A stretch of 26,224 nt of DNA, taken from a virus. Made by a program: the position numbers and the translations under genes. The notes under the pieces are model-generated. The model worked only from the letters and a program-made list of their open reading frames with translations. It did not search any database and had not been told where the DNA came from. This document shows positions 1 through 18,064 of this stretch, one piece after another; position 1 is the stretch's first letter, and each line of letters begins with the position of its first letter. Location: positions 1 to 26,224 of IMG/VR virus record IMGVR_UViG_3300000116_000182; one strand, written 5' to 3'.

Positions 1-546
1 CATCATCCCGGGCACTTTCCAGCGGCCGCCACTTTCATCAATCAAGTTTTTGATCGGCTCCAATATTTCCCAGTCAAAAATCCGGCCATAGTCTGGACCG
101 GTTGCGGCCCGCAGTTCTCCGCCCTGCGCCTGATGTCCGTAAACCTTAATCAGTTCCTTGCCCCGGTTATACTTCAAACCCCATTGGATACAGTCCGCCG
201 CAATAGGTGCAGGCAAGTCGCGCAGATATCCCGCGGGTGCGCCTGCTAATTGTGATAGCTGGCCAAAACTCCAATTGGTGGGGGTGTTGTTATGCTCGCG
301 GCGATTGTCATCCGTATATTCGACAAAGATATTTCCCCGGCTGGGGTTTTCTTCGTCAAAGTCTCCGATGATTTTGACCTTGTGCGTGTCAACGGTGCGG
401 CTTGTCATGCGCTGCGAATCAATCTTTTTGTGCGCCAGCATATCGTCAAGCGTCAAAAACTTTTGATCGTCGGGACGGTTAAACCATTGTGATGAAACTG
501 CACTGTTTCCGATACCATGCGCGAAGGCGTTTGTGGTGTAAGTCAT
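1..546 (-). CDS. DUF932-like phage protein, truncated at left edge
   Basis: An open frame of 182 codons runs from ATG at 546 to the window edge without a stop, so only the N-terminal part is present. The start has a good Shine-Dalgarno (ACGGAG, 8 bases upstream). The end of the visible part reads LRAATGPDYGRIFDWEILE, which resembles the conserved 'R-A-x-x-x-x-x-Y-x-x-x-x-x-x-x-x-L' core of the DUF932 (phage/plasmid-like protein) family. An upstream stretch (QLSQLAGAPAGYLRDLP) resembles the helical part that precedes that core. DUF932 proteins are common on phages and plasmids, but no biochemical role is established that I can cite. A terminator-like hairpin (569-600) sits just upstream, so expression may be attenuated or come by readthrough from the Cys-rich gene. 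The family call is from motif resemblance only. Confidence 0.72.
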   Translation of the reverse strand, partial: MTYTTNAFAHGIGNSAVSSQWFNRPDDQKFLTLDDMLAHKKIDSQRMTSRTVDTHKVKIIGDFDEENPSRGNIFVEYTDDNRREHNNTPTNWSFGQLSQLAGAPAGYLRDLPAPIAADCIQWGLKYNRGKELIKVYGHQAQGGELRAATGPDYGRIFDWEILEPIKNLIDESGGRWKVPGMM

Positions 547-568
547 GTTATTAATCTCCGTAAAAGTT

Positions 569-600
569 AAAAAGAACGGACCATTGCCCGGCCCGCTCTT
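569..600 (-). terminator. Intrinsic terminator or attenuator hairpin before the DUF932-like gene
   Basis: On the minus strand an 11-bp stem (590-600 with 572-582, two G-U pairs) with a 7-base loop is followed by five Ts. It lies after the Cys-rich gene (stop at 651) and only 22 bases before the ATG at 546. It either ends the upstream transcript or acts as a leader attenuator. No strong promoter fits between the T-run and the ATG. Confidence 0.65.
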
Positions 601-650
601 ATAATCTCGCATAAACCTGCATATGATTGCAAGCTTTATTTTCTAAAAAG

Positions 651-1361
651 TTATTCCGCCCCGATATCACCCGCCACATGGTGCCGCACAATAGACCGCG
701 GCGGCAGGCCTTTAACAAACCGCAAAAGCTTTTCCCCGTCGGTTTCATCCGGCTGCGCACCGTTTGCAGTATCATCCCACCATATCCGGCAATTACCGGC
801 GTCCGCATAGCATCCGCCCTTAACGGTTAAATCCGCGGCTTTTCTTTTGCTGGGCCCATGCGCAGTAAATCCAATAATAAAATTGCGATCTAATCGGGCG
901 CAAAGTGGATCACCGTTTCCACAATCTGCGCAGGATATATCCCGGATTTCTGCCGGACACCGCACGACGTTAATACCATGCGGGGCCGGTTGCGTTTTCT
1001 TTCCCTGCCATGATTGCTCGTTTACCACCGCGACGGACGGGACGCCGTTATGAATCGACGCGGCTGCCGCGCCTAAGTTTTCGGTGCTGTAATTAATAAC
1101 GGTTTTATCTGCCCGCAATTTACGGCCCCAATCAAAAACATTTGGATCAAAATGCGAGTAAGTAAATGAAACGCCTTTGGCCGGTTTTGCATCCAGCAAC
1201 GCGTCAAGGTAATCGGCGTCAATCTTTTCGGTGCCTTTCCCGCTGCAATTCATTTTGCACGTGGTCGGGCAGGTCCCGTATTTCTCCCCGGTGCCCGCTC
1301 TATATGTTACCGCAATGCCCTTTGTTTTTTTGGCGCGGCTTAATTCAACAGTCTTTAACAT
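651..1361 (-). CDS. Cys-rich conserved phage protein (DUF7227/GP88-like?)
   Basis: A 236-aa protein whose start at 1361 is set by TTACGGAGG nine bases upstream. It carries two cysteine clusters that look like metal sites: C31-x3-C35-x3-C39 near the N-terminus, then C135, C144-x2-C147 and C154 in the middle, with C184 and C191 near the C-terminus. After the middle cluster comes NFIIGFTAHG (160-169). This arrangement reminds me of phage families labelled DUF7227 or GP88 (mycobacteriophage gene product 88), whose function is unknown; I am not certain of the assignment. No catalytic motif is recognised, and C-x3-C-x3-C is not the radical SAM spacing. It has its own promoter (1397-1426), so it appears to be a single-gene transcription unit. 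Confidence 0.85.
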   Translation of the reverse strand: MLKTVELSRAKKTKGIAVTYRAGTGEKYGTCPTTCKMNCSGKGTEKIDADYLDALLDAKPAKGVSFTYSHFDPNVFDWGRKLRADKTVINYSTENLGAAAASIHNGVPSVAVVNEQSWQGKKTQPAPHGINVVRCPAEIRDISCADCGNGDPLCARLDRNFIIGFTAHGPSKRKAADLTVKGGCYADAGNCRIWWDDTANGAQPDETDGEKLLRFVKGLPPRSIVRHHVAGDIGAE

Positions 1362-1396
1362 GGTTTGCCCTCCGTAATGTATGCGACTTATCTCAT

Positions 1397-1426
1397 ACTA
1401 TAGCGCAATAAAAAACCCGGCGTCAA
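1397..1426 (-). promoter_or_regulatory. Sigma-70-like promoter of the Cys-rich gene
   Basis: Minus strand: -35 TTGACG (1421-1426), 18-base spacer, -10 TATAGT (1397-1402), then about 30 bases to the TACGGAGG ribosome binding site. The -35 hexamer is exactly the 6-base loop of the terminator hairpin at 1413-1434. A CGCATA hexamer lies at 1380-1385, just downstream of the -10. Confidence 0.75.
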
Positions 1427-1434
1427 CCGGGTTT
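1411..1434 (-). terminator. Intrinsic terminator after the 37-aa gene
   Basis: Perfect 8-bp inverted repeat AAACCCGG/CCGGGTTT around the loop TTGACG (minus strand), followed by a run of six Ts. It lies 8 bases after the stop of the 37-aa gene, so it should end the unit that starts at the 1798-1826 promoter. The flanks are also AT-rich on the other side, so it may work in both directions. Confidence 0.75.
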
Positions 1435-1441
1435 AATTTTA

Positions 1442-1555
1442 TTATTTTTTACGTCGCCGGGGTTTTATCGGCCGCCGTCGCGCCTTTTCGCGTTCCTGTT
1501 TTTCCCACGTCTCTTTCCCGTATAATAATTTACCAAGCCAATTAAATAAAAACAT
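1442..1555 (-). CDS. 37-aa basic small protein, possible membrane anchor
   Basis: The ATG at 1555 directly follows the stop of the 70-aa gene (TAAATG), which indicates translational coupling. The product has a hydrophobic, aromatic N-terminus (MFLFNWLGKLLYG, 1-13) followed by a charged, strongly basic tail ending PRRRKK. It ends 8 bases before a terminator, so it is the last gene of a two-gene unit. The layout (short hydrophobic helix, cationic tail) suits a small membrane-associated or nucleic-acid-binding peptide, but I recognise no family. Its placement between a coupled start and a terminator is the main evidence that it is real. Confidence 0.6.
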   Translation of the reverse strand: MFLFNWLGKLLYGKETWEKQEREKARRRPIKPRRRKK

Positions 1556-1768
1556 TTAACCCCAATCCTTTTGCCCGCCGTCGGCTTCCCCATCGGCATA
1601 ACCTGCATGATAAGCCTTTAATTCAGACGGAGTTAAGTCCGTCACGCAGGTCGCGCAGTTCCTAGTGCTTGTTCCGCCCGTAAAGTAATGAGGGTCAACC
1701 GGTCGGTGATACCAATAGTCTGCCCGCCCGCGGTCATAAGGTCCGCCGTGTCTTTCATCATGTTTCAT
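1556..1768 (-). CDS. Conserved small phage protein (RGRADYWY...KDWG type)
   Basis: A 70-aa protein with an optimal start: GGAG eight bases before the ATG at 1768 and a well-placed promoter (1798-1826). It opens with a polar segment containing DRGRADYWYHR and DPHYF and closes with AYHAGYADGEADGGQKDWG. The pattern 'DRG-x-AD-x-x-Y-x-R ... Y-x-x-GY-x-x-x-E-x-x-G-x-x-KDWG' recurs in many environmental phage genomes as a hypothetical protein; that is from memory, and the function is unknown. Two cysteines (C38, C41) form a single CxxC. It is coupled to the 37-aa gene downstream. Confidence 0.85.
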   Translation of the reverse strand: MKHDERHGGPYDRGRADYWYHRPVDPHYFTGGTSTRNCATCVTDLTPSELKAYHAGYADGEADGGQKDWG

Positions 1769-1797
1769 AATAATCTCCGTAGTTAGTTAGGTCTAAG

Positions 1798-1826
1798 ATA
1801 TTATGCGATCATATGGGAGAAATCAA
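1798..1826 (-). promoter_or_regulatory. Sigma-70-like promoter of the 70-aa/37-aa unit
   Basis: Minus strand: -35 TTGATT (1821-1826), 17-base spacer, -10 TAATAT (1798-1803). The -35 lies inside the 3' end of the nuclease gene (stop at 1809). A CGCATA hexamer (1802-1807) touches the -10. Confidence 0.75.
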
Positions 1827-2270
1827 GCTCATTATTTTATCCCAGTCAAAATCCCCATCGGAGCAATAGACCGGTGCAACCTTCAGGCCTTCCATCTTTA
1901 AATCCATTGCGTCCTTACCGTGGTACAAATAGATCATTTGCGGCTTTGTTTTGGTTTGCAGCTTACGGACCAAAACCCAAACGCTGGCATGACTGTGCGT
2001 TGTAAGCCAAGCGACTTGATGAGGTCGCAGGTCCACTGCGTTTCCAGAAGTCGCCTTTAATTCTACAAAATGAAACTTACCGGTTTCATCGCAGCATAAA
2101 ACATCTGGGATGCCCGGCATGGCCCATGTTTCAATTCGGGTACTTTTCCATGTTCTCGGGCTCTTTTGCATCCCAGTCTTCATCAGCCTCCAAAAGTCGG
2201 CCTCGCGCTTTGTCGCGGTTCTGGGGATTGCTCTCTCCTTCGGGAGTAACGTCGATAGTGATCGGGGCAT
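1809..2270 (-). CDS. VRR-NUC-like PD-(D/E)XK nuclease
   Basis: The core reads GIPDVLCC (53-60), then FHFVELKATSG (66-76), then RPHQVAWL (82-89). This is the G-x-PD ... ExK ... Q layout of VRR-NUC/Holliday-junction-resolvase-like nucleases of the PD-(D/E)XK fold. D56, E70 and K72 are the expected metal-binding and catalytic residues. Such phage enzymes are thought to cut branched DNA during replication or packaging. The start is uncertain: ATG 2270 gives 153 aa and overlaps the terminase gene by 140 bases. ATG 2183 gives a shorter protein but would drop EADFW (23-27), which looks like the normal N-terminal helix of this family. A strong AAGGAGA lies five bases before an ATC codon at 2228 (see findings). 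The gene follows the terminase small subunit on the same strand. Confidence 0.82.
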   Translation of the reverse strand: MPRSLSTLLPKERAIPRTATKREADFWRLMKTGMQKSPRTWKSTRIETWAMPGIPDVLCCDETGKFHFVELKATSGNAVDLRPHQVAWLTTHSHASVWVLVRKLQTKTKPQMIYLYHGKDAMDLKMEGLKVAPVYCSDGDFDWDKIMSLISPI

Positions 2271-2760
2271 AACTTTGTTTAATCTCCTTCAGAGCGTTCA
2301 GCACTTCGTCCTTGCTCATCGAATCGATGCTGCCATGACGGATTTCTGATTTGCTCACATAAATATCGCCTTGCGCTTGCCCCCGCCGATATTCTGCTTG
2401 AACGGCTGCCGAATAGGCTCCGTTGGTTAACGCTGCATCGCGGATGGTTTGAAGGTCGCGCAGATGCCGCTGGTAATTCACGCCAAACTTTTCATCAAGC
2501 TCGGCGCGATATGATTGTATAGCTGCCACCACATGGGGACAGATATTAGGATTGGTCATCTCATATGCTCTGGTGTGCGCTGATCCTGCCGGGTAGCCTG
2601 CATTAACCGCAGCTTCCCGCATAGTGATCTGGCCATCCTTCGAAACAAGCTCTTTTACAAAAAGCTCTTGCCGCCTAGTCAGGACCGCAGCTTTAGTTGA
2701 TTTAGGTCGCCCGCCTTTTTTAGTTTTAGCAGGAGGGTTTGATTTAGCTTTCGACGCCAT
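2131..2760 (-). CDS. terS: Terminase small subunit (probable)
   Basis: A 209-aa protein. The basic N-terminal tail (KKGGRPKSTK) is followed by LTRRQELFVKELVSKDGQ (27-44) and then REAAVNAGY (48-56). This is the 'x-L-T-x-x-Q-x-x-F-V-x-x-L ... A-A-x-x-A-G-Y' helix-turn-helix typical of phage terminase small subunits, which recognise the packaging site and load the large subunit. The middle is helical and charged, and the C-terminus is acidic. An AGGA box lies about eight bases before the ATG. The large subunit is not adjacent in this window, which is unusual. The downstream nuclease gene overlaps its 3' end. An alternative reading is another phage DNA-binding protein with the same HTH. Confidence 0.72.
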   Translation of the reverse strand: MASKAKSNPPAKTKKGGRPKSTKAAVLTRRQELFVKELVSKDGQITMREAAVNAGYPAGSAHTRAYEMTNPNICPHVVAAIQSYRAELDEKFGVNYQRHLRDLQTIRDAALTNGAYSAAVQAEYRRGQAQGDIYVSKSEIRHGSIDSMSKDEVLNALKEIKQSYAPITIDVTPEGESNPQNRDKARGRLLEADEDWDAKEPENMEKYPN

Positions 2761-3070
2761 GATAGTATCCTAGTTATTTGCAGATACTTTACACTCAAAA
2801 CAGCCCCCTTGTATATATAGCTACAAAAATAAAAAATATAAAAAAACTTTTCAGACCCCCTTAACGCACTTCTGCCCCTTACGGTTACACAAACTCTGGT
2901 TACGTTACATTTTTAGAAACTACTTTGTGTTACTTCTAAGTCCCTATATATAAAGAACAAAACACCCAAAGTTACACGGTTACACCGGTTACGCCTATTT
3001 TTACAAAAAATATTTATTTTTATTTCTGGCTCTATATATAAGGGAACGCGTTTATTTGTAACCGCTCCAT
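2761..3070. other. AT-rich non-coding region with iterated GTTAC and TATATATA motifs
   Basis: No credible gene lies here on either strand. The region has homopolymeric A/T stretches, three TATATATA boxes (2812-2819, 2945-2952, 3033-3040), a short inverted repeat TTGTA/TACAA (2809-2813 with 2822-2826) and seven GTTAC repeats between 2884 and 2992. The TATATATA boxes could serve as -10 elements for the terminase small subunit gene, but no convincing -35 is paired with them. The whole resembles an origin or an operator array more than a plain spacer. Confidence 0.6.
2882..2993. repeat. GTTAC iteron cluster
   Basis: GTTAC occurs at 2884, 2899, 2904, 2929, 2971, 2979 and 2988, all in the same orientation. 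A reverse copy (GTAAC) lies at 3058-3062. The 9-mer CGGTTACAC occurs exactly twice (2882-2890 and 2977-2985). The spacing is irregular (15, 5, 25, 42, 8, 9), so this is not a simple tandem repeat. Confidence 0.65.
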
Positions 3071-3099
3071 AAAAAAACCCGCGATCCGTGGACCGCGGG
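3071..3099 (-). terminator. Intrinsic terminator after the 120-aa gene
   Basis: A minus-strand stem CCCGCGGTC/GATCGCGGG (one G-U pair, 4-base loop) is followed by seven Ts (A-run at 3071-3077 on the plus strand). It lies 8 bases past the stop at 3107. Confidence 0.85.
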
Positions 3100-3106
3100 C
3101 TGTTGT

Positions 3107-3469
3107 TTACGCGCTACTATTTTCGATGCTTGAGATATTCTCTGTCATCCATTCGAGGCAGTCCGCGTGTTTGTCGTTAAAATCACCTTTCTTCACGGGC
3201 CTTATAGATCGGCTTGTGACCGTAAAGATTCCAATTGGGGTTGGCGGGTTTTCCGTTTGCCAATTGTATCCTCCAAAGTCTGATACATAAAGCTCGTCAT
3301 CTTTACCGTACACAACGTAGATTGGTATTTTATCTCCGCCGTCGTGTTTATGGGCGTTTTTGATTGCAGTAATTGGATTACTTGCTTTTGCCCATGTGCC
3401 GTAAAGACCGGCAGTTGATGCGAGGAAGGTGTATCCGTTTGGAAGGACGTGATCTTGTGTTTCACTCAT
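3107..3469 (-). CDS. Hypothetical phage protein, 120 aa
   Basis: The start at 3469 is fixed by CTACGGAGG eight bases upstream. The unit has its own strong promoter (3565-3593), a structured leader of about 90 bases and a terminator right after the stop, so it is a monocistronic transcription unit. The protein is globular-looking, with beta-rich segments (IYVVYGKDDELYVSD and IGIFTVTSRSI). There is no signal peptide, membrane segment or catalytic motif that I recognise. The dedicated, elaborate control suggests a protein needed at a particular time or level; its function is unknown. Confidence 0.8.
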   Translation of the reverse strand: MSETQDHVLPNGYTFLASTAGLYGTWAKASNPITAIKNAHKHDGGDKIPIYVVYGKDDELYVSDFGGYNWQTENPPTPIGIFTVTSRSIRPVKKGDFNDKHADCLEWMTENISSIENSSA

Positions 3470-3477
3470 GGTGAACC

Positions 3478-3560
3478 TCCGTAGTATGTAGGACCGAAGT
3501 CCATTGTCAAATAGCCGTGGGGCTTGCCCGCCCCAGCCGACGGGCTCATCCCATCGACAA
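3478..3560 (-). ncRNA. Structured 5' leader RNA (three hairpins, possible closing stem)
   Basis: Reading the minus strand from the predicted start of transcription: GAUGGG(AUGAG)CCCGUC (6 bp, one G-U), then GGGGC(GGGCAA)GCCCC (5 bp, flanked by a possible CCGU/ACGG), then GGAC(UUCG)GUCC, a perfect UUCG-capped hairpin. UUGUC at the 5' end can pair with GACAA after the second hairpin, closing a multi-branch element. The ribosome binding site follows directly. It matches no riboswitch class that I can name. Confidence 0.5.
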
Positions 3561-3564
3561 TATT

Positions 3565-3593
3565 ATATTACCACAGGTATGCGATAAAGTCAA
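3565..3593 (-). promoter_or_regulatory. Strong sigma-70-like promoter of the 120-aa gene
   Basis: Minus strand: -35 TTGACT (3588-3593), 17-base spacer, -10 TAATAT (3565-3570). The spacer carries CGCATA (3578-3583). It lies in the gap after the 47-aa gene, whose stop is at 3625. Confidence 0.8.
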
Positions 3594-3624
3594 TAGTTAA
3601 CTTTTTAAGAAATTAGGTGCGTTG

Positions 3625-3768
3625 TTAGAACGGCGGTTCTTCTCCATCATATTTTGGTTTCCAAGGCTCGTGGGCCGTGGGCTTTGAGGAGGGTAAGGGG
3701 CTCGTGGGTTTTGTTTCGAGGACGCCGATACGTTTAAGCTCGGCGTCCAAGTGTGGTGGAAGGTTCAC
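3625..3768 (-). CDS. 47-aa small protein with SSB-like C-terminal tip
   Basis: A GTG at 3768 overlaps the stop of the 25-aa ORF as GTGA, a typical coupled start. The product starts NLPPHLDAELKRIGVLE, has a Pro/Ser-rich linker (residues 20-38) and ends KYDGEEPPF. The acidic-Pro-Phe end resembles the C-terminal peptide by which SSB proteins (ending DDIPF in E. coli) dock partner proteins. Two other proteins in this window end similarly (DKDIPF and EAPF). There is no folded domain beyond one short helix. It might be a small adaptor; the start codon and reality of the gene rest on the coupling and on the tail. Confidence 0.55.
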   Translation of the reverse strand: MNLPPHLDAELKRIGVLETKPTSPLPSSKPTAHEPWKPKYDGEEPPF

Positions 3769-3842
3769 CAGTTGGGTCCGAAGACTTTGGCGAACACTTC
3801 ATTGAGCATGATTTCGATTTCGAGGTCGGTCATTTTTTTCAT
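3765..3842 (-). CDS. 25-aa coupled micro-ORF
   Basis: An ATG at 3842 overlaps the stop of the membrane-anchored HTH-like gene (ATGA), and the ORF's own stop overlaps the GTG of the 47-aa gene. The product is acidic and amphipathic (MKKMTDLEIEIMLNEVFAK then VFGPNW). It may be a real small protein, or only a translational relay that lets ribosomes reach the 47-aa gene. There is no Shine-Dalgarno of its own. Confidence 0.4.
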   Translation of the reverse strand: MKKMTDLEIEIMLNEVFAKVFGPNW

Positions 3843-4231
3843 GATACGAAGCTCGACACGATTGCTGCGGCTGCGCCTGCAACGATTGCGGTAACGACGG
3901 CCCGGACTAGGAGTTTATGTCGGACGTACCACGGCTCGTGGTTCACGGTTTCCCACATTTTATTTTCGAATTGCGCGTCGTGGGTTGTGGTGAAGTCCAC
4001 GGCTTCGGCCATCCCGAGTTCTTTGTGGGATGGTTTGCTGAACGTTTTGTTTGAGGCGGCGTACTTTTCTACTTCTGATTCTTTAAAGTGGCGCACACCT
4101 TTAACCATTGTTCCTTTTGGGAAGGGCATGGGGCTACGTTTGGTTACGACTTTCTTAATATGATATTCCAATTTTGGTGCCTTGATGCTGTATTTCAAAC
4201 AGATTTCTTTTTTGGTGAGTGTCTTTGACAT
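3839..4231 (-). CDS. HTH-like protein with C-terminal transmembrane helix
   Basis: 130 aa. The ATG at 4231 is chosen because GGAG lies seven bases upstream; an in-frame ATG 12 bases earlier overlaps that site. The N-terminus (LTKKEICLKYSIKAPKLEYH) looks like a short helix-turn-helix. A basic PMPFPKGTMVKGVRHFKESEVEKY stretch follows in two parts (38-49 and 50-61), as in MerR/excisionase-like winged folds. The last 23 residues (LVRAVVTAIVAGAAAAIVSS then FVS) form one transmembrane helix preceded by KW/R-rich sequence. A tail-anchored DNA-binding-like protein in a phage could tether DNA or a regulator to the membrane; this is inference. It has its own promoter at 4258-4287. Confidence 0.8.
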   Translation of the reverse strand: MSKTLTKKEICLKYSIKAPKLEYHIKKVVTKRSPMPFPKGTMVKGVRHFKESEVEKYAASNKTFSKPSHKELGMAEAVDFTTTHDAQFENKMWETVNHEPWYVRHKLLVRAVVTAIVAGAAAAIVSSFVS

Positions 4232-4257
4232 GATTATCTCCATAGTTAGGTGGGATT

Positions 4258-4287
4258 ACTATATGGGATATTATGCGCTAGTGTCAA
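4258..4287 (-). promoter_or_regulatory. Sigma-70-like promoter of the HTH-TM/25-aa/47-aa unit
   Basis: Minus strand: consensus -35 TTGACA (4282-4287), 18-base spacer, -10 TATAGT (4258-4263). CGCATA (4272-4277) lies in the spacer. It starts 3 bases after the upstream gene's stop codon. Confidence 0.8.
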
Positions 4288-4290
4288 GCT

Positions 4291-4578
4291 TTAGTGTATT
4301 TCGTCGGAACCGCGGTGGTTTTGCTGTTTGATTTGCATTTCTTCTGCATTGACGGTTGCGTTGTGTATGCAGGAGGACAGGACTTTCATGGCGGTATCAT
4401 TATCGGGGGCGAGGGACATGAGCGCGGTGAGTGTTTGCGTAAGCATTCCCCCGATAGCTGCGCCCATGTTCATATCGTTTGCGTTCATTTCTTGGATAAG
4501 TTCATGAGCGCATTCCATTGACCAAAAGAAGTCATCTTTTATTTCGTCTTCGACTTCTTGTAGCGAGGATGGCTTCAT
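4291..4578 (-). CDS. Hypothetical acidic helical protein, 95 aa
   Basis: The ATG at 4578 immediately follows the TGA of the preceding HTH gene (TGAATG), so the two are coupled. The protein is acidic and mostly helical, with the segments LQEVEDEIKDDFFWSMECAH and AAIGGMLTQTLTALMSLAP, and a polar C-terminal tail. The second segment is moderately hydrophobic but contains Gln and Thr, so it is more likely a buried helix than a membrane span. No family is recognised. It is the last gene of a three-gene run starting at 5102. Confidence 0.75.
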   Translation of the reverse strand: MKPSSLQEVEDEIKDDFFWSMECAHELIQEMNANDMNMGAAIGGMLTQTLTALMSLAPDNDTAMKVLSSCIHNATVNAEEMQIKQQNHRGSDEIH

Positions 4579-4899
4579 TCAATCTTTCCGAGGCAGATCA
4601 TATCTTTTGACATAATCACGAACAGTACGGAGCAAGATGCCCGTCATGGTCGCAATTTCTTGGTCTGTTATGTTTTTCAGTTTCATATTATTGATTATCT
4701 TAGCCTTGTCGGGCAGTTTTTTAAAGTCTGTTTTTGGTCGGCCGCCTTTGTTGCCAGATTGCTTGCCACCATCCCATGCGGCGCGTTGTCCTAAATCAGA
4801 TTTTAGTTTTGGATTTATCGCATGGTCATACTTTAGCTGCTTGATCCAAGCTGCGCGGTATAGGTCCTGATATTCAGGAGAATCGGGGGTCAGTTTCAT
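4579..4899 (-). CDS. Small HTH DNA-binding protein
   Basis: 106 aa. The ATG at 4899 overlaps the stop of the preceding gene as ATGA and has GGGAGG seven bases upstream, which is better than the farther upstream in-frame start. The middle contains the flexible basic element GNKGGRPKTD (AT-hook-like). The C-terminus reads ITDQEIATMTGILLRTVRDY, a homeodomain-like/resolvase-like helix-turn-helix, followed by VKRYDLPRKD. A role as a phage transcriptional regulator or DNA-site recogniser is likely. It resembles the small HTH proteins that accompany replication genes in other phages. Confidence 0.78.
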   Translation of the reverse strand: MKLTPDSPEYQDLYRAAWIKQLKYDHAINPKLKSDLGQRAAWDGGKQSGNKGGRPKTDFKKLPDKAKIINNMKLKNITDQEIATMTGILLRTVRDYVKRYDLPRKD

Positions 4900-5102
4900 T
4901 TTTTGGCCTCCCATGTGTCCACCTCCGCGTACCAATTGCCGGTGCGGCCACTTTCTTTTACTTGGACGTTTATCCAATCACCGTCTTTTTCGGACAGCCA
5001 CGCGATCAGGTCTTCGCGTTTTATGCTAAGATTGCACTTAACGAAGTCAGGCGCTTTCTCGTTTGGTTTCTTGGCCATCAGGCCGTTAACAAAATCAGGC
5101 AT
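4896..5102 (-). CDS. Conserved phage hypothetical protein, 68 aa
   Basis: The start at 5102 is fixed by AAGGAGG six bases upstream; the longer frame to 5147 would cross the terminator-like hairpin and is rejected. The pattern 'SIKREDLIAWLSEKDGDWIN' followed by VQVKESGRTGNWYAEVDTWE recalls a family of small phage proteins of the type 'W-x-N-V-x-V-K-x-S ... W-Y-A-E-V-D-x-W', which I know only as hypothetical. The fold is probably alpha/beta with two C-terminal strands. A hairpin with a run of eight Ts directly precedes the ribosome binding site, suggesting attenuation. Confidence 0.8.
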   Translation of the reverse strand: MPDFVNGLMAKKPNEKAPDFVKCNLSIKREDLIAWLSEKDGDWINVQVKESGRTGNWYAEVDTWEAKK

Positions 5103-5112
5103 TTTTCCCTCC

Positions 5113-5155
5113 TTAAAAAAAAGATACCCCCAGCCGCGGGCAAGCAACTGGGGGT
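5113..5155 (-). terminator. Terminator-like attenuator hairpin abutting a ribosome binding site
   Basis: Perfect 8-bp stem ACCCCCAG/CTGGGGGT (5148-5155 with 5126-5133), then ATC and eight Ts (5113-5120 region), which run straight into AAGGAGG of the 68-aa gene. There is no room for a promoter after the hairpin, so downstream genes depend on readthrough. Confidence 0.75.
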
Positions 5156-5178
5156 GGTTTTACTACGGAGTGCAACAT
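5113..5178 (-). CDS. Possible 21-aa leader peptide over the attenuator hairpin
   Basis: ATG at 5178 to TAA at 5113-5115 reads MLHSVVKPPPVACPRLGVSFF. The frame spans the whole hairpin and ends exactly where the next gene's AAGGAGG begins. A Pro-Pro-Pro run falls at the start of the first stem arm, where ribosome pausing could alter folding. There is no good Shine-Dalgarno, so this is tentative. Confidence 0.25.
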   Translation of the reverse strand: MLHSVVKPPPVACPRLGVSFF

Positions 5179-5281
5179 GTCGTTACAGCACCTACTTTAC
5201 ATAGAGATATGGGATAAGCAACACTTAATCGCATATTTCCTTTGGAAACTCGGCGGTTTTTGGGTCGTCTATAATTGTTAA
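5177..5281 (+). CDS. Possible 34-aa plus-strand ORF
   Basis: ATG at 5177 is preceded by TTTTACTACGGAG, the same ribosome-binding context used by the real genes at 1768 and 3469. The product begins MSLQHLLYIEIWDK and is hydrophobic and aromatic toward the end (LIAYFLWKLGGFWVVYNC), as in a small membrane peptide. It overlaps the 3' end of the zinc-ribbon gene in antisense. No plus-strand promoter is visible. Confidence 0.25.
   Translation: MSLQHLLYIEIWDKQHLIAYFLWKLGGFWVVYNC
5194..5221 (-). promoter_or_regulatory. Possible promoter ahead of the attenuator
   Basis: Minus strand: TTGCTT (5216-5221), 16-base spacer, TAAAGT (5194-5199). It lies just after the zinc-ribbon gene and would start a leader that carries the hairpin at 5113-5155. 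It is weaker than the other promoters here. Confidence 0.4.
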
Positions 5282-5371
5282 AGTACATGTCTTACAAACC
5301 CGAACAAGTTTTTTTTCTGTCTTTTCAGTTACCTGAAGCACTTGTTCGCACTTCGGACAGCGGTTTTTCAT
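5225..5371 (-). CDS. Zinc-ribbon small protein, 48 aa
   Basis: A 48-aa protein starting MKNRCPKCEQ with a second pair CKTC about 20 residues later. Two CxxC knuckles with this spacing are a classic zinc ribbon. The tail is acidic (IIDDPKTAEFPKEICD). The ATG at 5371 is preferred because it starts just after the RHH gene's stop (5394) and places the ribbon at the N-terminus; an in-frame start at 5422 would overlap that gene. The Shine-Dalgarno is weak for both. The role is unknown; such proteins often bind nucleic acid or RNA polymerase. It is co-transcribed with the RHH gene. Confidence 0.7.
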   Translation of the reverse strand: MKNRCPKCEQVLQVTEKTEKKLVRVCKTCTLTIIDDPKTAEFPKEICD

Positions 5372-5393
5372 AAGTCGTTTGTGAAACGAATTA

Positions 5394-5588
5394 TTACTTT
5401 GATACGAGATTGTCATCCGCAACCACCGCTTCGTTGGATTTCTTTACGAGAGCGCGTTCGAATTTATACCAATCAAAAACCACGCGGAGTTGTCCCCCGA
5501 TTGTTCTGCCTTCTGTTTTAGACAGTTCTTTTATTTCTTCGTACACTTCGCGTGGTACGAGGACACTTTTCCAGCGTGTGGTATCCAT
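5394..5588 (-). CDS. Ribbon-helix-helix (Arc/MetJ-like) DNA-binding protein
   Basis: 64 aa, with a good start (GGAG eight bases before ATG 5588). The layout is an N-terminal strand (RWKSVLVP), a helix (REVYEEIKELSKTEG), a turn, and a second helix (IGGQLRVVFDWYKFERAL), which fits a dimeric ribbon-helix-helix repressor. It is divergent from the plus-strand ATP-grasp gene, 75 bases apart, with direct repeats in the shared gap. It is therefore a candidate regulator of itself and of the ATP-grasp gene. It resembles antitoxin-type RHH proteins, but no toxin is evident nearby. Confidence 0.75.
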   Translation of the reverse strand: MDTTRWKSVLVPREVYEEIKELSKTEGRTIGGQLRVVFDWYKFERALVKKSNEAVVADDNLVSK

Positions 5589-5620
5589 TTTTTATCTCCA
5601 AGTCCCGCTTTGTCTAGGAT

Positions 5621-5648
5621 ATTATAGGAGAATATGCAAGAATGCAAG
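5621..5648 (-). promoter_or_regulatory. Promoter of the RHH gene with overlapping direct repeat
   Basis: Minus strand: consensus -10 TATAAT (5621-5626). The -35 is less certain: CTTGCA (5643-5648) with a 16-base spacer. The plus-strand direct repeat TGCAAGAA (5635-5642 and 5643-5650) covers the -35 region and could be an operator. No clear plus-strand promoter for the ATP-grasp gene could be assigned in the same gap. Confidence 0.55.
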
Positions 5649-5663
5649 AAAAAGGGGGATATA

Positions 5664-6413
5664 ATGAGTTTTGTTTTGTTTGGTCAAATGGATGATCCTA
5701 ATATCGCAGCGTTGCGTCCGCATTTCGATTTGTTTCTGGATCAGGCCGGAGACTACACGTGGGACATAAATACAAATACTCTTGTTTATTGTGACGAACC
5801 GGTTAACATGCGCGGGTTTTTTGGCCGGGCCAACGTGTTCACAGAAAACACGCACCAGCGGTACAATAATTGGTATCTTATGGCCAATTATCTGAAAGCC
5901 AACCCAAAGGTCGCCGTTTACAACCGTAAATATGACCATGTGACGCCCATCAAGGCGGCCAATCTGCGTAGCGCCATGGCCGCGGGCCTTGCGATACCGC
6001 GCACGATCATTGGTAAGGGGCCTTTGGAGGGCGATTGCATTGTCAAACCGCTTACGGGCGGCCAACATTGCCAATCCGGTAATGAATCGATGTACACGGG
6101 AATCATACAGCACCGCATAGCAGGGAATAATCGGCGTTTGTTTCTTATCGGAAACCAGCACTTTGGTTTCAGGTTAGATACGACGGAGCTAGATTACCGG
6201 GACGATCCCCACACAAAGGTTTCGGTGGAACATTTTCCGCAGGATGAGGTCGATAAAGTAAGAACCGTGGCGCGTGGGCTGGGCTTAACCTTTTGTGCTG
6301 CGGATTTCATGGACGATATATTTTTGGAGGTGAACAGCGGGCCCATGTTCGCGGCGTTTGATGCGGTTGTTTACGGAGCCCTTGCGAAGGCTATTCGTGC
6401 AGAGTTAAAATAA
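5664..6413 (+). CDS. ATP-grasp peptide ligase, graspetide-maturase (MvdD)/RimK-like
   Basis: 249 aa. ATG 5664 is chosen because AGGGGG lies five bases upstream; ATG 5634 would add 10 residues and also has a GGAG. The N-terminal domain has variable strands and a YNNWYLMANYL helix. Then come KAANLRSAMAAGLAIPRTII, the conserved entry to the ATP-grasp fold, and DCIVKPLTGG, whose Lys should contact ATP. The C-terminal half has RLFLIGNQHFGFRLDT, a D-Y-R-D element, GLTFCAADFMDDIFLEVNSG and PMFAAFDAV, matching the metal-binding 'D-F ... L-E-V-N' end of the fold. ATP-grasp ligases of this kind join a carboxylate to an amine or hydroxyl, as in graspetide crosslinking or RimK tailing. It is one of only two well-supported plus-strand genes. 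The substrate is unknown. Confidence 0.85.
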   Translation: MSFVLFGQMDDPNIAALRPHFDLFLDQAGDYTWDINTNTLVYCDEPVNMRGFFGRANVFTENTHQRYNNWYLMANYLKANPKVAVYNRKYDHVTPIKAANLRSAMAAGLAIPRTIIGKGPLEGDCIVKPLTGGQHCQSGNESMYTGIIQHRIAGNNRRLFLIGNQHFGFRLDTTELDYRDDPHTKVSVEHFPQDEVDKVRTVARGLGLTFCAADFMDDIFLEVNSGPMFAAFDAVVYGALAKAIRAELK

Positions 6414-6458
6414 AAAAACCCCCAACCTTTGCAGTGCGAAACCTAGCCGGGTCGGGGG
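6412..6458 (-). terminator. Intrinsic terminator of the replication operon
   Basis: Minus strand: 9-bp stem CCCCCGACC/GGTTGGGGG (one G-U pair; 6450-6458 with 6419-6427) followed by seven Ts. It lies 50 bases after the polymerase stop and abuts the end of the convergent ATP-grasp gene, so it also insulates that gene. Confidence 0.85.
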
Positions 6459-6507
6459 CAGTTAGACAAAAGCCACAGGCGTAGCTATGTCGAGCAGGAA
6501 AGAGAGC

Positions 6508-8403
6508 CTACATGGACTCGCCCCAAGACGGTCCCATTTCAACATCACATTTACTCGGGACCTCCAGAGGAAGAACATTCTCCATAATCTTAGCTATTTC
6601 ATTAGCTTCGTCAACATTTTTTACTGACATAGCAATTTCATCGTGGATTTGTATCAGAGGCAAATGTCCTTTCTTGTACAATGCAACCATTGCTTTCTTT
6701 GTCATGTCCGCGGCGGACGCTTGGATGAGCCTGTTCAAAGCTTTGTAGGTGTATGCCCTTTTAAGACGCGTAGTGGGCCCGTAGGTGGACACAGCTTCCC
6801 TGTAAGGTAGTGCTTTGTTCATTGCGAACGTGTCGGGTTCCCACATGTCAAACCTGCACTTACGGCCTCCCAGTGAGCGCAGAGCGCCTGCCGACGATTT
6901 CTCGTTTAACCTGTTCATAACGCCGGTCATCAGTCCTTTTACGAACGGAACGCGATCATGGTATTGTTTGACCAGCTTCTTGGCTTCCTCGACAGGAATG
7001 TCCAAGCTTTCCGCCATTTTGTTTACGCCCATGCCATACATCAGACCGAGGTTAATGGTCTTTGCTTGCTTACGTGGAATGTTTGTCATCTCGGCAACCA
7101 TGGTATGGAAGTCTGTTCCGGGGTCCGTGTTGTATGCTTCAACAAACTCGGCTGCGCCATCCAGAGGGATGCCGCGTGTTTTGCCATAAACGTGAGCGTA
7201 GTGAACCAAGATGCGTGGTTCTTGTTGCGAGTAGTCGATGGCGGCCCATTGGTCACCTTCTTCTGGCAGGAACAGACTGCGGATCATGGGACCTAGTTCT
7301 GGATCGCGGGCCGGGATTTGTTGCAGGTTGGGGTTGGACATTGAAATTCTACCGCTAACGGTGCCCCCATCGTCTGACCGGATTTGGTTTATGTGCGAAT
7401 GTATGCGTCCATCTGTGCGGCAATGCTTCATAATTGTGTTGATAAAGGTGCCTGACGTTTTGTTCAGGTTCCGCGCTTCGACAACCAGCTTTGCCACGGG
7501 GTGCGGGTTTTCGTTTAGGAACTGTTTGGTAAACGACGGAGCGCCTTTTTCTGTTTTAGGGTAAGTTATGTCCAGCTTGTCGAAAGCCTTGGACAGCGAT
7601 TGCGCGGCCCATATTTCCACATCTGTTCCCGTGATGCGTTTAACTTCCTTCATGACTTCTTTTTCGCGCTTGAGGAGCATGTCCTTGGTCCGCTCCACGC
7701 GGTTCACGTCTATGCGAACGCCACGCATTGTCATGTCCACAAGGCACGGTAGGAGGTCGAGTTCTGTGTTAGCTATGTCCCATAGGTCTTCTTTACCCAA
7801 CAGGGTAGAAAAGTAATTCCAAAGCTCCAGCGTAAGTACGGCATCTACCTCGGCATATGGGCCGACATACATAGCGGGCATTTTCCACATCTCGGCTTTT
7901 GGATCGACACCAAACTCCCGAGCGGCTTCAACCAGCGCCTTTTCTGATTTGGTTTTGCCTAAATGTTCGTAGGCCAGAGCGTTGAGACTGTAACTGAACC
8001 GGTTTTCATCAAGCAGAGAGGCGACAAGCATTGTATCGATTATGCGGCCGTTAACCGTGAAGCCCATCTGTTTAACCCAGCCCAAGTCATATTGAGCATT
8101 GTGCATGATCTTATCGGCAGGGCATTCAAAGACTTTGCGCAGCCATTTATTGACTTGTTTTTCGTCCAGATTTCCGCCGCCGAAGTGCCGTATCGGAATG
8201 TAGCCGGACCACCCGTCCACTGCTACGGCATACCCTACGACTTCCCCGTCCCCGGTGGGCCACCCGGGCCCGTTTTTCTTTAAGTTAGGGTCACGGGTTT
8301 CGACATCAATCGCAATCTTTGATGCGCTTGTGATGTCCGGTAACTCAAGGGGTGGGACCCATTCACTTTTTGGAGCGAACATTGCCATTTGTAGATTTGC
8401 CAT
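6508..8403 (-). CDS. polA: DNA polymerase I family (family A) with 3'-5' exonuclease
   Basis: 631 aa, a usual size for phage family A polymerases without a 5' nuclease domain. Exonuclease motifs: DVET (33-36), HNAQYDLGWV (101-110) and Y183-x3-D187. Polymerase motifs: motif A DYSQQEPR (390-397, catalytic D390); the O-helix RKQAKTINLGLMYG (444-457) with K448 and Y456; motif C IHDE (586-589, catalytic D588). L452 occupies the position of E. coli Phe762. It replicates the phage genome together with the upstream primase, helicases and SSB-like protein. GAGG lies upstream of ATG 8403 inside the DUF6378-like gene, which it overlaps by 41 bases. It is the last gene of the operon. Confidence 0.97.
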   Translation of the reverse strand: MANLQMAMFAPKSEWVPPLELPDITSASKIAIDVETRDPNLKKNGPGWPTGDGEVVGYAVAVDGWSGYIPIRHFGGGNLDEKQVNKWLRKVFECPADKIMHNAQYDLGWVKQMGFTVNGRIIDTMLVASLLDENRFSYSLNALAYEHLGKTKSEKALVEAAREFGVDPKAEMWKMPAMYVGPYAEVDAVLTLELWNYFSTLLGKEDLWDIANTELDLLPCLVDMTMRGVRIDVNRVERTKDMLLKREKEVMKEVKRITGTDVEIWAAQSLSKAFDKLDITYPKTEKGAPSFTKQFLNENPHPVAKLVVEARNLNKTSGTFINTIMKHCRTDGRIHSHINQIRSDDGGTVSGRISMSNPNLQQIPARDPELGPMIRSLFLPEEGDQWAAIDYSQQEPRILVHYAHVYGKTRGIPLDGAAEFVEAYNTDPGTDFHTMVAEMTNIPRKQAKTINLGLMYGMGVNKMAESLDIPVEEAKKLVKQYHDRVPFVKGLMTGVMNRLNEKSSAGALRSLGGRKCRFDMWEPDTFAMNKALPYREAVSTYGPTTRLKRAYTYKALNRLIQASAADMTKKAMVALYKKGHLPLIQIHDEIAMSVKNVDEANEIAKIMENVLPLEVPSKCDVEMGPSWGESM

Positions 8404-8689
8404 TATTTATTTCCTCAATAAATTCTGCGCCCAGCGCGGTGTATCCCGCTTTATCAATCCATGAGTCTTCATGATCGATTGTTTCTATGAGCCTGCTTGT
8501 TTTTACCCAGTCCATCATCAACGTGACGTGGGCTGGGGTCAGGTAACCGTGGCTTGCATAAGCTCCACGCATGATTACGTTCCAACCATCCGCGATACGT
8601 TGGTGGTTTTCATACGCATCCCCGTAATCCTTGGCCCGGTCCCCGTTAATTAAGGACTTTGCTTTGTCCAACACTTCATCTCGTTTCAT
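8363..8689 (-). CDS. DUF6378-like phage protein
   Basis: 108 aa. It contains INGDRAKDYGDAYENHQRIA (14-33), then VTLMMDWVKTSRLIE (55-69) and DSWIDKAGYTALGAEF (75-90). The pattern 'N-G-D-R-x-x-x-Y-G ... N-H-x-x-I-A ... K-x-x-R-L ... D-S-W-x-D-x-A-G-Y' is the signature I know as DUF6378, found in many phages next to nucleotide or replication genes; function unknown. The conserved His, Asp and Glu residues suggest an all-alpha, possibly metal-dependent fold similar in style to MazG/HD nucleotide hydrolases, but this is inference. The ATG directly follows the sigma-like gene's TAG with GGAGG eight bases upstream. Confidence 0.85.
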   Translation of the reverse strand: MKRDEVLDKAKSLINGDRAKDYGDAYENHQRIADGWNVIMRGAYASHGYLTPAHVTLMMDWVKTSRLIETIDHEDSWIDKAGYTALGAEFIEEINNGKSTNGNVRSKK

Positions 8690-9340
8690 CTAATCCTCCA
8701 ACAAATCTTGACCAAGAGGTTTAAGAGATAATTCAAGCCGCCAGTGGCGAGCCCTCCCCGTTTCCCAATCATACGGGTCCCACTTAGGGTTCTTAACATC
8801 CATATACCCCAAATTAGACGCAACCTTGCGCATCTTCCGAAAAGCCTTAGCCTCTATCTGACGAACCCGCTCCCGGGAAACTCTCAAAGATGCAGCGCAC
8901 TCATCCAAACTCTGGTCATGCGCAAACCGCCGAGCTAAAACATCCCGCTCCCGAGGAGTCAGTTTCTGAGAAAACTGACTTATTGCACTCAACTGTGATA
9001 TAGTCTTTTCCGACGAACCCTCCTGAACTAACTTCTTTACGTCGTCCAAATCAAGATTAACCTCAGATGTAGATTTATTTAAACGAAGCTCACGCATGTG
9101 ATTCGGCCACAAATCCTCCGGATCACGGCCAACCATCCCCGCAACATCCAAAGCTAAATCCGTCCAACCCTTTGAATTATATGGAACCGACTTCATCGTT
9201 ATTAACTTATTTACCGTTTGCTGCGAACGACTCATCTTTCGGCACATGTCCGCAACAGAAGAATACCGCTCGCGTATCGCACGAAGTAACCTTCCATTGC
9301 GAACAGTTACCTTTAAATTAAAATCCTCATCACTTTTCAA
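8690..9340 (-). CDS. HTH plus sigma-70 region 4 protein (phage sigma-like factor)
   Basis: 216 aa. The N-terminal part (residues 14-85) looks like a Cro/C1-type HTH, with RSQQTVNKLITMKSVP and the DPEDLWP signature seen in Ner-like repressors. The C-terminal part (about 127-172) is a textbook sigma-70 region 4: LTPRERDVLARRFA, then LDECAASLRVSRERVRQIEA and KAFRKMR. Region 2, which binds the -10 and core polymerase, is absent, so it is not a full sigma factor. It may contact the -35 region or act as a regulator that redirects host polymerase. The TTG start overlaps the upstream stop as TTGA, with GAGG about seven bases upstream. It is transcribed within the replication operon. Confidence 0.85.
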   Translation of the reverse strand: MKSDEDFNLKVTVRNGRLLRAIRERYSSVADMCRKMSRSQQTVNKLITMKSVPYNSKGWTDLALDVAGMVGRDPEDLWPNHMRELRLNKSTSEVNLDLDDVKKLVQEGSSEKTISQLSAISQFSQKLTPRERDVLARRFAHDQSLDECAASLRVSRERVRQIEAKAFRKMRKVASNLGYMDVKNPKWDPYDWETGRARHWRLELSLKPLGQDLLED

Positions 9341-14621: not shown

Positions 14622-16070
14622 ATGCGTGGATTTGAGTACAAAACCAACCCGTATGACCACCAGCGTAAAGCGTTAGAAGCTTCGTGGGCCGAGGAGTATT
14701 ATGCGCTGTTCATGGAGATGGGTACAGGCAAAACAAAAGTGGCTATAGACACCATGGCGGTTCTTCACGAAGCAGGCAAGATAAATGCGGCTTTGGTTGT
14801 AGCACCCAAAGGAGTTTACGATAACTGGGTCAAAAATGAAATACCGGCACACCTTCCGGACCGCATTCAACGAAACATCCTGCGCTGGACCCCTGCCAAG
14901 ACAAAACGCATGGAAACAGACCTTAAAGATTTCATTGTTGGAGATTTACACGGCATCAAAGTGTTTGTTATGAACATAGAGGCGTTTTCCACGAGCCGTG
15001 GGACGGAAGCCGCTCTCGCCTTTCTTTACCAAAACCCCGACAATATTGTGATTGTAGACGAAAGCACCACGATCAAGAACCGTAAGGCGGCTCGGACAAA
15101 GAATATTGTAAAGCTACAAGAGTATTCTAAGTATCGGCGTATCCTGACGGGTTCTCCTATTACCAAAAGCCCCATGGATTTGTTTAGCCAGTGCGACTTC
15201 CTGCGTAACAAGGCGCTTGGTTTTAACAGCTACTTCGCGTTCCAATCGCGTTACGCAAACATTCAACAACGCACAATGGGGCACCGCAGCTTCCAGCAAA
15301 TCGTGGGTTACCGACGGTTAGACGAACTTTCTGAAAAGTTAGACCGCTTTAGCAATAGGGTTTTAAAGCAAGATTGCTTGGACCTGCCTGAGAAGGTTTA
15401 TGTGCGGCGGGAAATCGAGTTCACTCCGGAACAAAAGAAACTGTACACGCAGATGAAGAAGTTGGCTCTAGCTAAGTTAGAAAGCGGGGAGCTTGCCACC
15501 ACTGCGAGCGTTCTTACCCAGATAATGCGTCTTCAGCAAATATGCTGCGGGTTTCTGCAACCAGATGAGGGTGAGATAGAGTCTGTCCCGAGTAACCGTC
15601 TGAAGGAACTTTTGGAGCTTACAGATGAGGTGCAGGGCAAAGCTATAATATGGGCCACATATACGCATGATATTCTGCGCATTGAGAAAGCCATCAAAGA
15701 CCAGTTTGGCGAAGACTCGGTTGCGACGTACTATGGTGGTACACCGCAGGATGAGCGGCAAGATATCGTCACGCGCTTTCAGGATAAGTCTGATCCGCTG
15801 CGTTTCTTCGTTGGTCAGCCGCGGACCGGGGGCTACGGCATCACGCTAACTGCCGCTAACACCGTGATTTACTTTTCAAACAGTTACGACTTGGAAATTA
15901 GATTACAGTCGGAGGATCGCGCTCACCGGATTGGTCAAACCAACAAGGTCACCTATATTGACATGGTTTCGCCCGACACTATCGATGAAAAGATACTACA
16001 GGCCTTGCGGAGCAAGATTGATATTGCTGGTCAGGTTCTAGGCGAAGACGCGAAAGACTGGTTGAAATAA
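14622..16070 (+). CDS. SNF2/Rad54-like DEAD-box-type helicase (SF2)
   Basis: 482 aa from ATG 14622 (AGGGAAA upstream); the longer in-frame start at 14535 would include the promoter and is rejected. SF2/SNF2 motifs: Q-like YDHQRKAL (11-18), I MEMGTGKT (31-38), Ia [13 protein letters not shown] (57-69), [11 protein letters not shown] (145-153, DEST in place of DEAH), III LTGSPI (175-180), [27 protein letters not shown] (430-443). The protein is a compact ATPase core without accessory domains. Phage SNF2 proteins are thought to remodel or translocate on dsDNA during replication or recombination. Its plus orientation separates it from the replication operon, although the two promoters are interlocked. 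Its 3' end overlaps the convergent transglycosylase gene by 40 bases. Confidence 0.95.
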
Positions 16071-18064
16071 CCCTGCGGGTCAGGCCCGCGGACCGGGGGT
16101 GGTCCAGAAACTTCGCCGCCACTTGCAAAGGGGCTGGGCATTTCTTGGTCATAGTCGTATGCGGCATACTGCGCAAAGACGTTTTCTGTCGGTTCTTCGG
16201 GCCGAGCTTGTGGTCTGATCTGCGGAACAGAGGCCTGTTCTACAACTTCAGGTTCTTGAGGCATCATTAGATACTCACTTACCGCTTGTGCGGCAGGAGC
16301 AAACCCCGGTTGACCGAGGCCCGCGGGCCGTCCCCGAGGTTTAGGAGCCGGGTCTGAATTTTCCGTTAGTTGAAAAAAGTCTCCCATGGCTGGTAATATT
16401 TCACCTTTAGGCGCACCGTGAATGATTGAGACGTAATCACGGGTTTCCTCAAAAGGAGGTATTCCGTTGTATTTACGCACATTACCGGGGCCCGCGTTAT
16501 ATGCTGCGAGGGCCAAGGGCACCGTACCAAAGTCCTGTAGTTGTTGCTTGAGATACTTAATCCCACCAATTACGTTTTGTTTTGGATCGTTGGGGTCTAC
16601 ACCCAATTCTTTTGCCGTTTCGGGCATAAGCTGCATTAGGCCTATTGCGCCTTTTCCACTAACGGGGCCCTGACGGCCTTTATTTTCTTGGTATATAACA
16701 CGTAGAACTAGCTCGGGATCAACGTTTTGTTCAAGAGCTAACTCCATGGGATCAAACCCATAATCTTCCATTATTTTCTGTCTTACGGCTGTAAGCTGTT
16801 CAGGGGTAGCCGGTGCCGTTACGACGCCCCCTTCGTTAAAAAGTTGTGCAAACATCCCACCAAGACCGGCTTGCATGGGGTTTCCTAGTTGTCCGGTAGT
16901 CTCAGGGGATTGTTGGAGCATACCAAGTTGCCCTACAGACACGCCGCCTCCGCCATCCTCGCCCATGGCTTGAGTCATAGCCATCATACCGCCTCCGCCA
17001 TCCTCGCCTATAGCGCGTGTCATGGCGTTACCACCCATCATGGGTTCTGGTCTGTTTTCAAATTGAGACATGCTATCAAGGTGCATTTGTCCGCCGCCAA
17101 AGCCAAAGCTTTCTTCGGCTCCAAAGTGAGCCCGCTCTGCTTCGTCAACCAACTGCACAAAATGCTCCACATCTTTTTGCGCAGCTTCCTGAACGGTTTG
17201 TGCGGCTTTTTGACCGTAAGTTCCCATCAAATAGTCTTGGTAATTTTGTAGCGGAGAACCCCGCAAGTTAGCCATTTCACGGCCAAACTGGTTTTGTTGT
17301 TGGAATAAACCGCCAACGCCTTGCATGGGAGGGCCTTGAACCGAGCCCATTTGTTGCATCAGTTGCTGCATCTGATCTTGTTGAGGCCTAGCTGGAGCTA
17401 TTGAGTTTGCATAAGGGTTGGCTATCATACCACCTTCCGCATAATTTTGAACCATACCACCATCTCCATATCCCATTGCCGTAGAACTAAAACCTGCGTT
17501 CCCGGCTAAATTAACGTCCCCAGCTTGAAAACCGGCCGATCCGGCCCCGTCGCGGATTAATTGCTCTCCTGCACCACTACCGTAATTTCCACGAGAGTCA
17601 TTTAAGACAGCCTGCGCCATCGCGCTTGTCATGCCTCTATGTTGAGCCCGTTCTTGAGCGGATTCAACAAACTCATCAACGTCGGCTCCTGAAAAACCGG
17701 GGTCTTCAGGAGCTACTGGAGCCGGGCCACCTTCGAACACAGGAGCCGTCGAGGTGAACTCTCCCGGCGAAGCTACTGTATCGGACCATTCCTCATAAGG
17801 CGTAGTCCGATCCGTTGCATTCCATGCTTCGATGGCCGCGTTGTACGCCTCACGGTCCTCGTTCCATTTAGCAAGTTGCGCGTTCCACGGTTCGATTTGG
17901 TTAAGGTTAAAGTCGTCAACAAGCGACTGATATGCTCCCGCATCTGTTTGATACTGTGTCAAAGCGGAGTTGTATGTTTTTATCCGGTTATCGTAATCAT
18001 CCATGATATCCCGGTCAAACTTATAAAAATCATACTCGGGGGACGCGTATCCTACGATTGACAT
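16031..18064 (-). CDS. Virion protein with lytic transglycosylase (SLT) domain
   Basis: 677 aa. Residues 1-100 are a charged helical region. The middle (170-420) is Gly/Gln/Met-rich and low in complexity, with a short duplication (two GEDGGGG units, 353-374). Residues 442-546 are a soluble lytic transglycosylase domain: [12 protein letters not shown] (452-463) with the likely catalytic E460, [13 protein letters not shown] (472-484), [18 protein letters not shown] (517-534). It should cut peptidoglycan, probably during DNA entry because it sits within a virion block rather than a lysis cassette. Four aromatic-x-x-GG-x-V/I motifs occur (199, 208, 409, 646). The C-terminus is Pro-rich. The start (AGGAG upstream of ATG 18064) lies 4 bases after the previous stop. 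Confidence 0.9.

Follow-up and report, generated by a model that had tools for sequence, protein, structure and literature searches.

Graspetides are known as protease inhibitors, small and secreted, that arise from dedicated precursors. Among the described systems, the plesiocin system of the group 2 graspetides, consisting of the synthetase PsnB and the precursor PsnA, most resembles the phage system presented here; PsnB is the best profile and structure match of the phage ligase, the substrates of both systems are multi-core, and the cores of both are of the TTxxxxEE type. The microviridin synthetases MdnB/MdnC, AMdnB, and CdnC possess the same fold and ATP-grasp residues as the phage ligase, and RimK as well as RimK-like ATP-grasp proteins of phages have the ATP-grasp fold in common with it. 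In Leptospira phage LE1 (KF114876, L190), an MvdD-like ligase adjoins a small ORF; positions 5559-7253 encode a 37-aa acidic ORF, the MvdD-like ATP-grasp protein, and a membrane protein, possibly a graspetide cargo cluster. The fecal contig MT835913 (L189, ‘Bacteriophage sp.’) carries at 7164-8840 an ORF with QEG-D/E repeats followed by an MvdD-like ligase, probably another graspetide type and perhaps bacterial. Because such graspetide-like cargo clusters exist in LE1 and in the fecal contig, a graspetide ligase in a phage is not by itself unique. Term searches in the surveys PMC8939145 and PMC11118758 did not find a phage-encoded graspetide.

The window, i.e., the whole stretch of DNA analyzed here (26,224 nucleotides of IMG/VR record IMGVR_UViG_3300000116_000182), belongs to an uncultured phage whose polymerase is nearest to those of Phage DSL-LC04 and the Pelagibacter phages HTVC023P and HTVC027P. 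The ligase gene lies alone on the plus strand, between an RHH gene and the DNA polymerase gene, which are both on the minus strand:

5664..6413, plus strand: graspetide-type ATP-grasp ligase, 249 aa, with a short N-terminal domain (ORF, homologues, fold, dN/dS)
5589..6507, no strand: accessory slot, from RHH start to polymerase stop (sister-phage comparison)
5394..5588, minus strand: RHH gene, a core phage gene and neighbor only (gene survey of sister phages)
5225..5371, minus strand: zinc-ribbon gene, 48 aa, neighbor only (gene survey of sister phages)
5635..5650, no strand: direct repeat TGCAAGAA, two copies, upstream of the RHH gene (sequence and sister phages)
6412..6458, minus strand: hairpin with a T-run after it, directly adjoining the ligase stop codon and probably terminating the polymerase operon (seen by eye; the automated hairpin scan, limited to loops of 8, did not list it)

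Elsewhere, the window encodes a probable phage sigma factor, which has sigma-70 region 4 and an HTH-like N-terminus (8690-9340, minus strand), and a long repeat protein with QLGLSAEQLA-type units, which is without a family match and runs off the window (24675-26224, minus strand).

For the slot comparison, 80 relatives were collected by their polymerase. The slot of sister phages is mostly empty and about 50-250 bp long, and it measures about 870-920 bp when it contains the ligase. In L026, a slot of 931 bp harbors an Api92-like gene; such a gene (DUF1281_C) occupies the slot of L153 (4082-4603, minus strand) and L023 as well, an exchange of cargo at one site among close relatives. The earlier note had described correctly that the ligase stands alone on its strand near RHH and 48-aa zinc-ribbon genes, but neither gene is a dedicated partner, since both occur in phages without ligase. 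The RHH gene follows the polymerase gene in almost every sister phage, whether a ligase is there or not, and was therefore rejected as a ligase-specific regulator. The distant L111-L114 group, where the ligase overlaps the RHH stop codon, might be an exception, so that a functional link between both genes has some, albeit weak, support. The zinc-ribbon protein, formerly named as the nearest possible substrate, was rejected in this role because the distribution of its gene is not tied to the ligase; it is found in phages with and without ligase and is missing from the ligase-bearing L012-L016. The suspected operator repeats do exist, but near-copies of TGCAAGAA with small changes persist at the same place in L018, L021, and L153, where the ligase is deleted or replaced, and the repeats thus belong to the RHH operon rather than to the ligase.

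The ligase ORF is confirmed as a real gene. Pairwise dN/dS values within the group range from 0.06 to 0.11 and indicate strong purifying selection. The start is placed at 5664 because the same Met begins nearly all relatives, which have an MSF/MDY/MTY start in common, and because AGGGGG is found upstream. A first viral scan yielded 17 relatives, one of them an internally deleted remnant only, and relatives as distant as 48-50% identity came from later scans; among 50,697 annotated phage records no homologue was found. The sequence motifs from which the ligase had initially been classified are present and are conserved in homologues with 50-95% identity, which keep K97, KP 128-129, GG 132-133, R158, LDYRDDP 176-182, D214, E222, and N224. 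The conserved ATP/metal residues, the loss of which in homologues would have spoken against a ligase according to the earlier note, are therefore retained.

Profile and predicted fold both match PsnB best, bearing out the initial assignment to the graspetide-type ATP-grasp enzymes. When a profile built from the phage and Gemmataceae enzymes was run against all PDB sequences, PsnB came first (E 5e-21), followed by PruB (8e-14), with AMdnB, MdnB (1e-10), MdnC, and CdnC after it, and RimK at 0.005. The AlphaFold model of the ligase (pLDDT 85, pTM 0.82) led in Foldseek to PsnB as first match (7drm, 2e-15, TM 0.77 by query length), then to PruB and AMdnB/MdnC, and then to RimK. K128, R158, D177/R179, D214, E222, and N224 align with PsnB, LDYRDDP lying on its IDFR stretch with the D-x-R motif kept and E222/N224 on its Glu/Asn pair. 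In NCBIfam, TIGR04187 (ATP-grasp ribosomal peptide maturase) is matched with 1e-9, aligning the ATP-grasp half only, and the ligase does not reach the curated cut-offs of TIGR04184/04185/04187 (38 of 350 bits for TIGR04187). A Gemmataceae homologue with a clear adjacent precursor likewise stays below the cut-off (163 bits), so that these models are narrow. The N-terminal region of about 90 aa, which is without a profile match, is predicted to be folded; Pfam, PHROGs, and PADLOC searches with the ligase gave nothing useful. These data support a compact graspetide synthetase of the PsnB (plesiocin) type as the product of the gene. RimK family identity was rejected on the profile values (0.005 versus 5e-21), and the RimK-like modification of a ribosomal protein that had been considered earlier loses its footing with it.

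Two distant relatives pointed to the candidate substrates. A first genome scan with N-terminal patterns found no relative, and the C-terminal part led to a Gemmataceae homologue (MAG L117, 31% identity), which adjoins a protein containing seven repeats, TTLALGEEGNPP being one example. Strong relatives of the L117 ligase occur in eight Gemmataceae genomes, seven of which encode an adjacent multi-core TTxAxGEEG precursor, compared to 0/12 for weaker ATP-grasp matches. Multi-core precursors with an [RK]HPF[DE] start are seen in L169-L172 and L174-L176, those of L171 and L172 running on into a long C-terminal domain. In phages L112-L114, whose distant ligases are about 50% identical to that of the window, the next gene on the ligase strand encodes a protein that carries 5-6 TTxAxGE[ED]-type cores, including TTMAVGEE, TTQAIGED, and TTQAMGEE. 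We take the TTxAxGE[ED] repeat to be a plesiocin-type core of the formula TTxxxxEE, which recurs in phage proteins as TTMAMGEE, TTRMVGEE, and TTQAMGEE. Across the phage set the core reads T-T-x-A-[MILV]-G-E-[ED], with single-Thr variants in the protein described below; Thr, Gly, and Glu are near invariant and the surroundings vary. The core-bearing regions did not match PsnA peptides among PDB chains (phmmer), and a leader motif common to the substrates, sought by eye, was not found.

A six-frame search of the window for T-x-A-[ILMV]-G-E-[DE] gives two matches only, both inside one protein:

16031..18064, minus strand: candidate substrate A, a 677-aa lytic transglycosylase (SLT) protein (core match, domain, gene order)
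16943..17287, minus strand: core module of substrate A, residues ~260-374, with a conserved upstream segment and two cores (homologue comparison)
17000..17020, minus strand: core 1, M-TRAIGED-G (six-frame motif match)
16955..16975, minus strand: core 2, M-TQAMGED-G (six-frame motif match)
16442..16738, minus strand: SLT catalytic domain, residues 443-541 (PF01464, 5e-23)

Two cores arose in 0/200,000 residue shuffles of this protein. Its gene adjoins genes for large internal or ejection-type proteins, one of which corresponds by gene order to the ‘DNA transfer protein’ of DSL-LC04. SLT homologues in the ligase-bearing G007, G013, and G014 have three cores each, with double-Thr forms such as TTQAMGED. 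No core-bearing gene adjoins the ligase in the window, and the earlier note, to which no classical precursor was obvious next door, missed the candidate substrates, which are located some 10 kb from the ligase or outside the window. A candidate of the latter kind becomes visible in a second contig:

1..9028, no strand: stretch 100.000% identical to positions 8758-17785 of contig G001 (IMGVR_UViG_3300007540_000235; 9,028 bp overlap)

Given this identity, G001 shows the part of the genome left of the window. It encodes candidate substrate B (L157 538-1524) roughly 8 kb beyond the edge of the window, between the portal gene, which B immediately follows, and scaffold-type genes; B is a 329-aa protein with four TT-cores (one TTRMVGEE and three TTMAMGEE). 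The homologue of substrate B in G011 has two cores, and in G013, which keeps the ligase, the homologue is without cores and the SLT protein carries three.

One might argue that the ligase makes a conventional small graspetide, e.g., a secreted protease inhibitor, whose precursor is cut from a core protein or encoded elsewhere, and that the phage merely carries a biosynthetic cluster. The G007 homologue of the SLT protein, cut to 232 aa around the cores and devoid of the SLT domain, looks like a precursor, as does the long core protein beside the ligase in L112-L114, and LE1 has its MvdD-like cluster as cargo. However, the cores are located in the middle of an SLT enzyme in the window, G013, and G014, and between portal and scaffold-type genes in G001, and an unsystematic look near the ligase noticed no protease or exporter gene. 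We therefore regard a conventional small product as unlikely.

Ligase and cores occur together. The core DNA pattern is present in 8/50 records scanned, comprising all six with an intact ligase (G001, G007, G011, G013, G014, and G025) and two contigs from the core-module search that end short of the slot (G053 and G055); the 42 records in which no intact ligase was detected all lacked it (Fisher 8e-8, kinship being left uncorrected). They are also lost together. In G020/G021, the ligase has shrunk to 40 codons through an internal deletion that keeps the reading frame and lies at a short repeat, the whole core module is gone from the SLT homologue, and a substrate B homologue was not found. G056 has a polymerase with 96% identity to that of the window; another gene occupies its slot in place of the ligase, and its SLT protein retains the conserved segment upstream of the cores, a conceivable leader, and lacks the cores themselves. 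In the ligase-deleted L128/L129, the SLT homologue has no core module, and L018 shows a further in-frame ligase deletion on a contig too short to show cores. Two independent in-frame ligase deletions at 5-6 bp repeats are located at 2261-2338 in L018 (26-codon scar) and at 8001-8120 in L020-L022 (40-codon scar). The polymerase tree requires at least four or five changes in ligase presence, with the partial record L116 entered as absent though its ligase runs off the contig end. Independent events are few, i.e., two co-losses among records of common ancestry. Computational evidence shows the enzyme class and the core motif as well as the co-occurrence and the co-loss of ligase and cores, and the ligase is an accessory gene of the polymerase-RHH slot that is gained and lost together with the cores.

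The small number of independent lineages, and the position of the cores within Gly-rich linkers, would also suit cores that are merely a structural Gly-rich repeat of virion proteins, associated with the ligase by shared ancestry. Against this speak the recurrence of one motif across three phage proteins that are unrelated to each other as well as across Gemmataceae precursors, the near invariance of its Thr, Gly, and Glu amid varying surroundings, and the loss of both ligase and cores in two lineages, and we consider such an origin improbable. Even less credence is due to the view that the cores are a coincidence and that the enzyme attaches amino acids to some protein of host or phage, as a RimK-like or another peptide ligase would; RimK belongs to the same fold class and RimK-like ATP-grasps are carried by other phages, but the profile E-value of PsnB is 18 orders of magnitude better than that of RimK, and a PsnB-type motif co-occurs with the ligase gene and disappears with it.

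We consider it probable, at roughly three chances in four, that the phage graspetide synthetase ester-staples virion-module proteins of its own phage. Using ATP, the ligase would phosphorylate the Glu/Asp side chains within cores of the form T-(T)-x-A-[MILV]-G-E-[ED]-G, the Thr hydroxyls of which would attack to form side-chain ester hairpins; MTRAIGED-type cores would obtain a single ring, and TTMAMGEE-type cores at most two. Most cores of the SLT protein have a single Thr, so that only one ester is possible in them. In our tally, phage cores without the first Thr end in ED and double-Thr cores in EE or ED, a pattern that would fit, suggestively, an outer Thr-Glu link lost together with its Thr. 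That the cores are the ligase substrate and that esters result is what we infer from the sequences; the substrates would be full-length phage proteins made in trans, i.e., the SLT protein and the portal-adjacent protein, and no small neighboring peptide. Substrates of this size seem feasible, as a synthetase of another group cyclized whole proteins in engineered constructs (PMC12291112). Going only by gene order, both candidate substrates may reside in the virion. Tentatively, stapled hairpins on particle proteins that are ejected with the DNA or exposed on the tail might act during infection as tethered protease inhibitors or protease-proof loops. This somewhat doubtful proposal is our leading idea because characterized graspetides, according to PMC8939145, are protease inhibitors and because the potency of plesiocin rises with the number of cyclized motifs (PMC13097080); speculatively, the most likely purpose would be a loop that resists or inhibits proteases and is borne by a protein of the particle or one that is ejected.

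The genomic company of the ligase suggests that, in this group of uncultured aquatic bacterial viruses, it cross-links short repeated motifs within particle-module proteins of the virus itself and does not make a separate peptide. If true, this would be a graspetide system with substrates encoded in trans and, to our knowledge, the first case in which a structural protein of a virus receives a graspetide modification. Large particle-module targets would carry graspetide chemistry over to viral proteins, enlarging the small set of post-translational cross-links known from virions and providing a natural case of protein stapling at internal loops. Compared to PsnB, the phage ligase lacks about 60-80 aa, most of them N-terminal; unlike plesiocin precursors, the phage substrates would be large proteins encoded in trans, many phage cores have a single Thr and Asp for the second Glu, and a precursor beside the ligase, as for plesiocin, is seen in L112-L114 and not in the window. 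The closest cellular enzymes found, the TIGR04187-type ligases of Gemmataceae (L117, L169-L176; 31% identity), have LDYRDDP in common with the phage ligase and a near-identical core formula, but in this uncharacterized system the precursor adjoins the ligase, starts with [RK]HPF[DE], has a signal-like segment, is probably exported, and contains no phage or SLT domain. Microviridin synthetases differ in their core motifs, small precursors, and weaker match, and for RimK and the phage RimK-like ATP-grasps, which match weakly in sequence, we know of no core-bearing partner. LE1 has a ligase of another family, a small ORF without TTxAxGE cores, and no demonstrated link to virion genes. The chemistry proposed here is thus of a known kind, and what appears to be new is that an enzyme of a phage would act in trans on proteins of the particle module.
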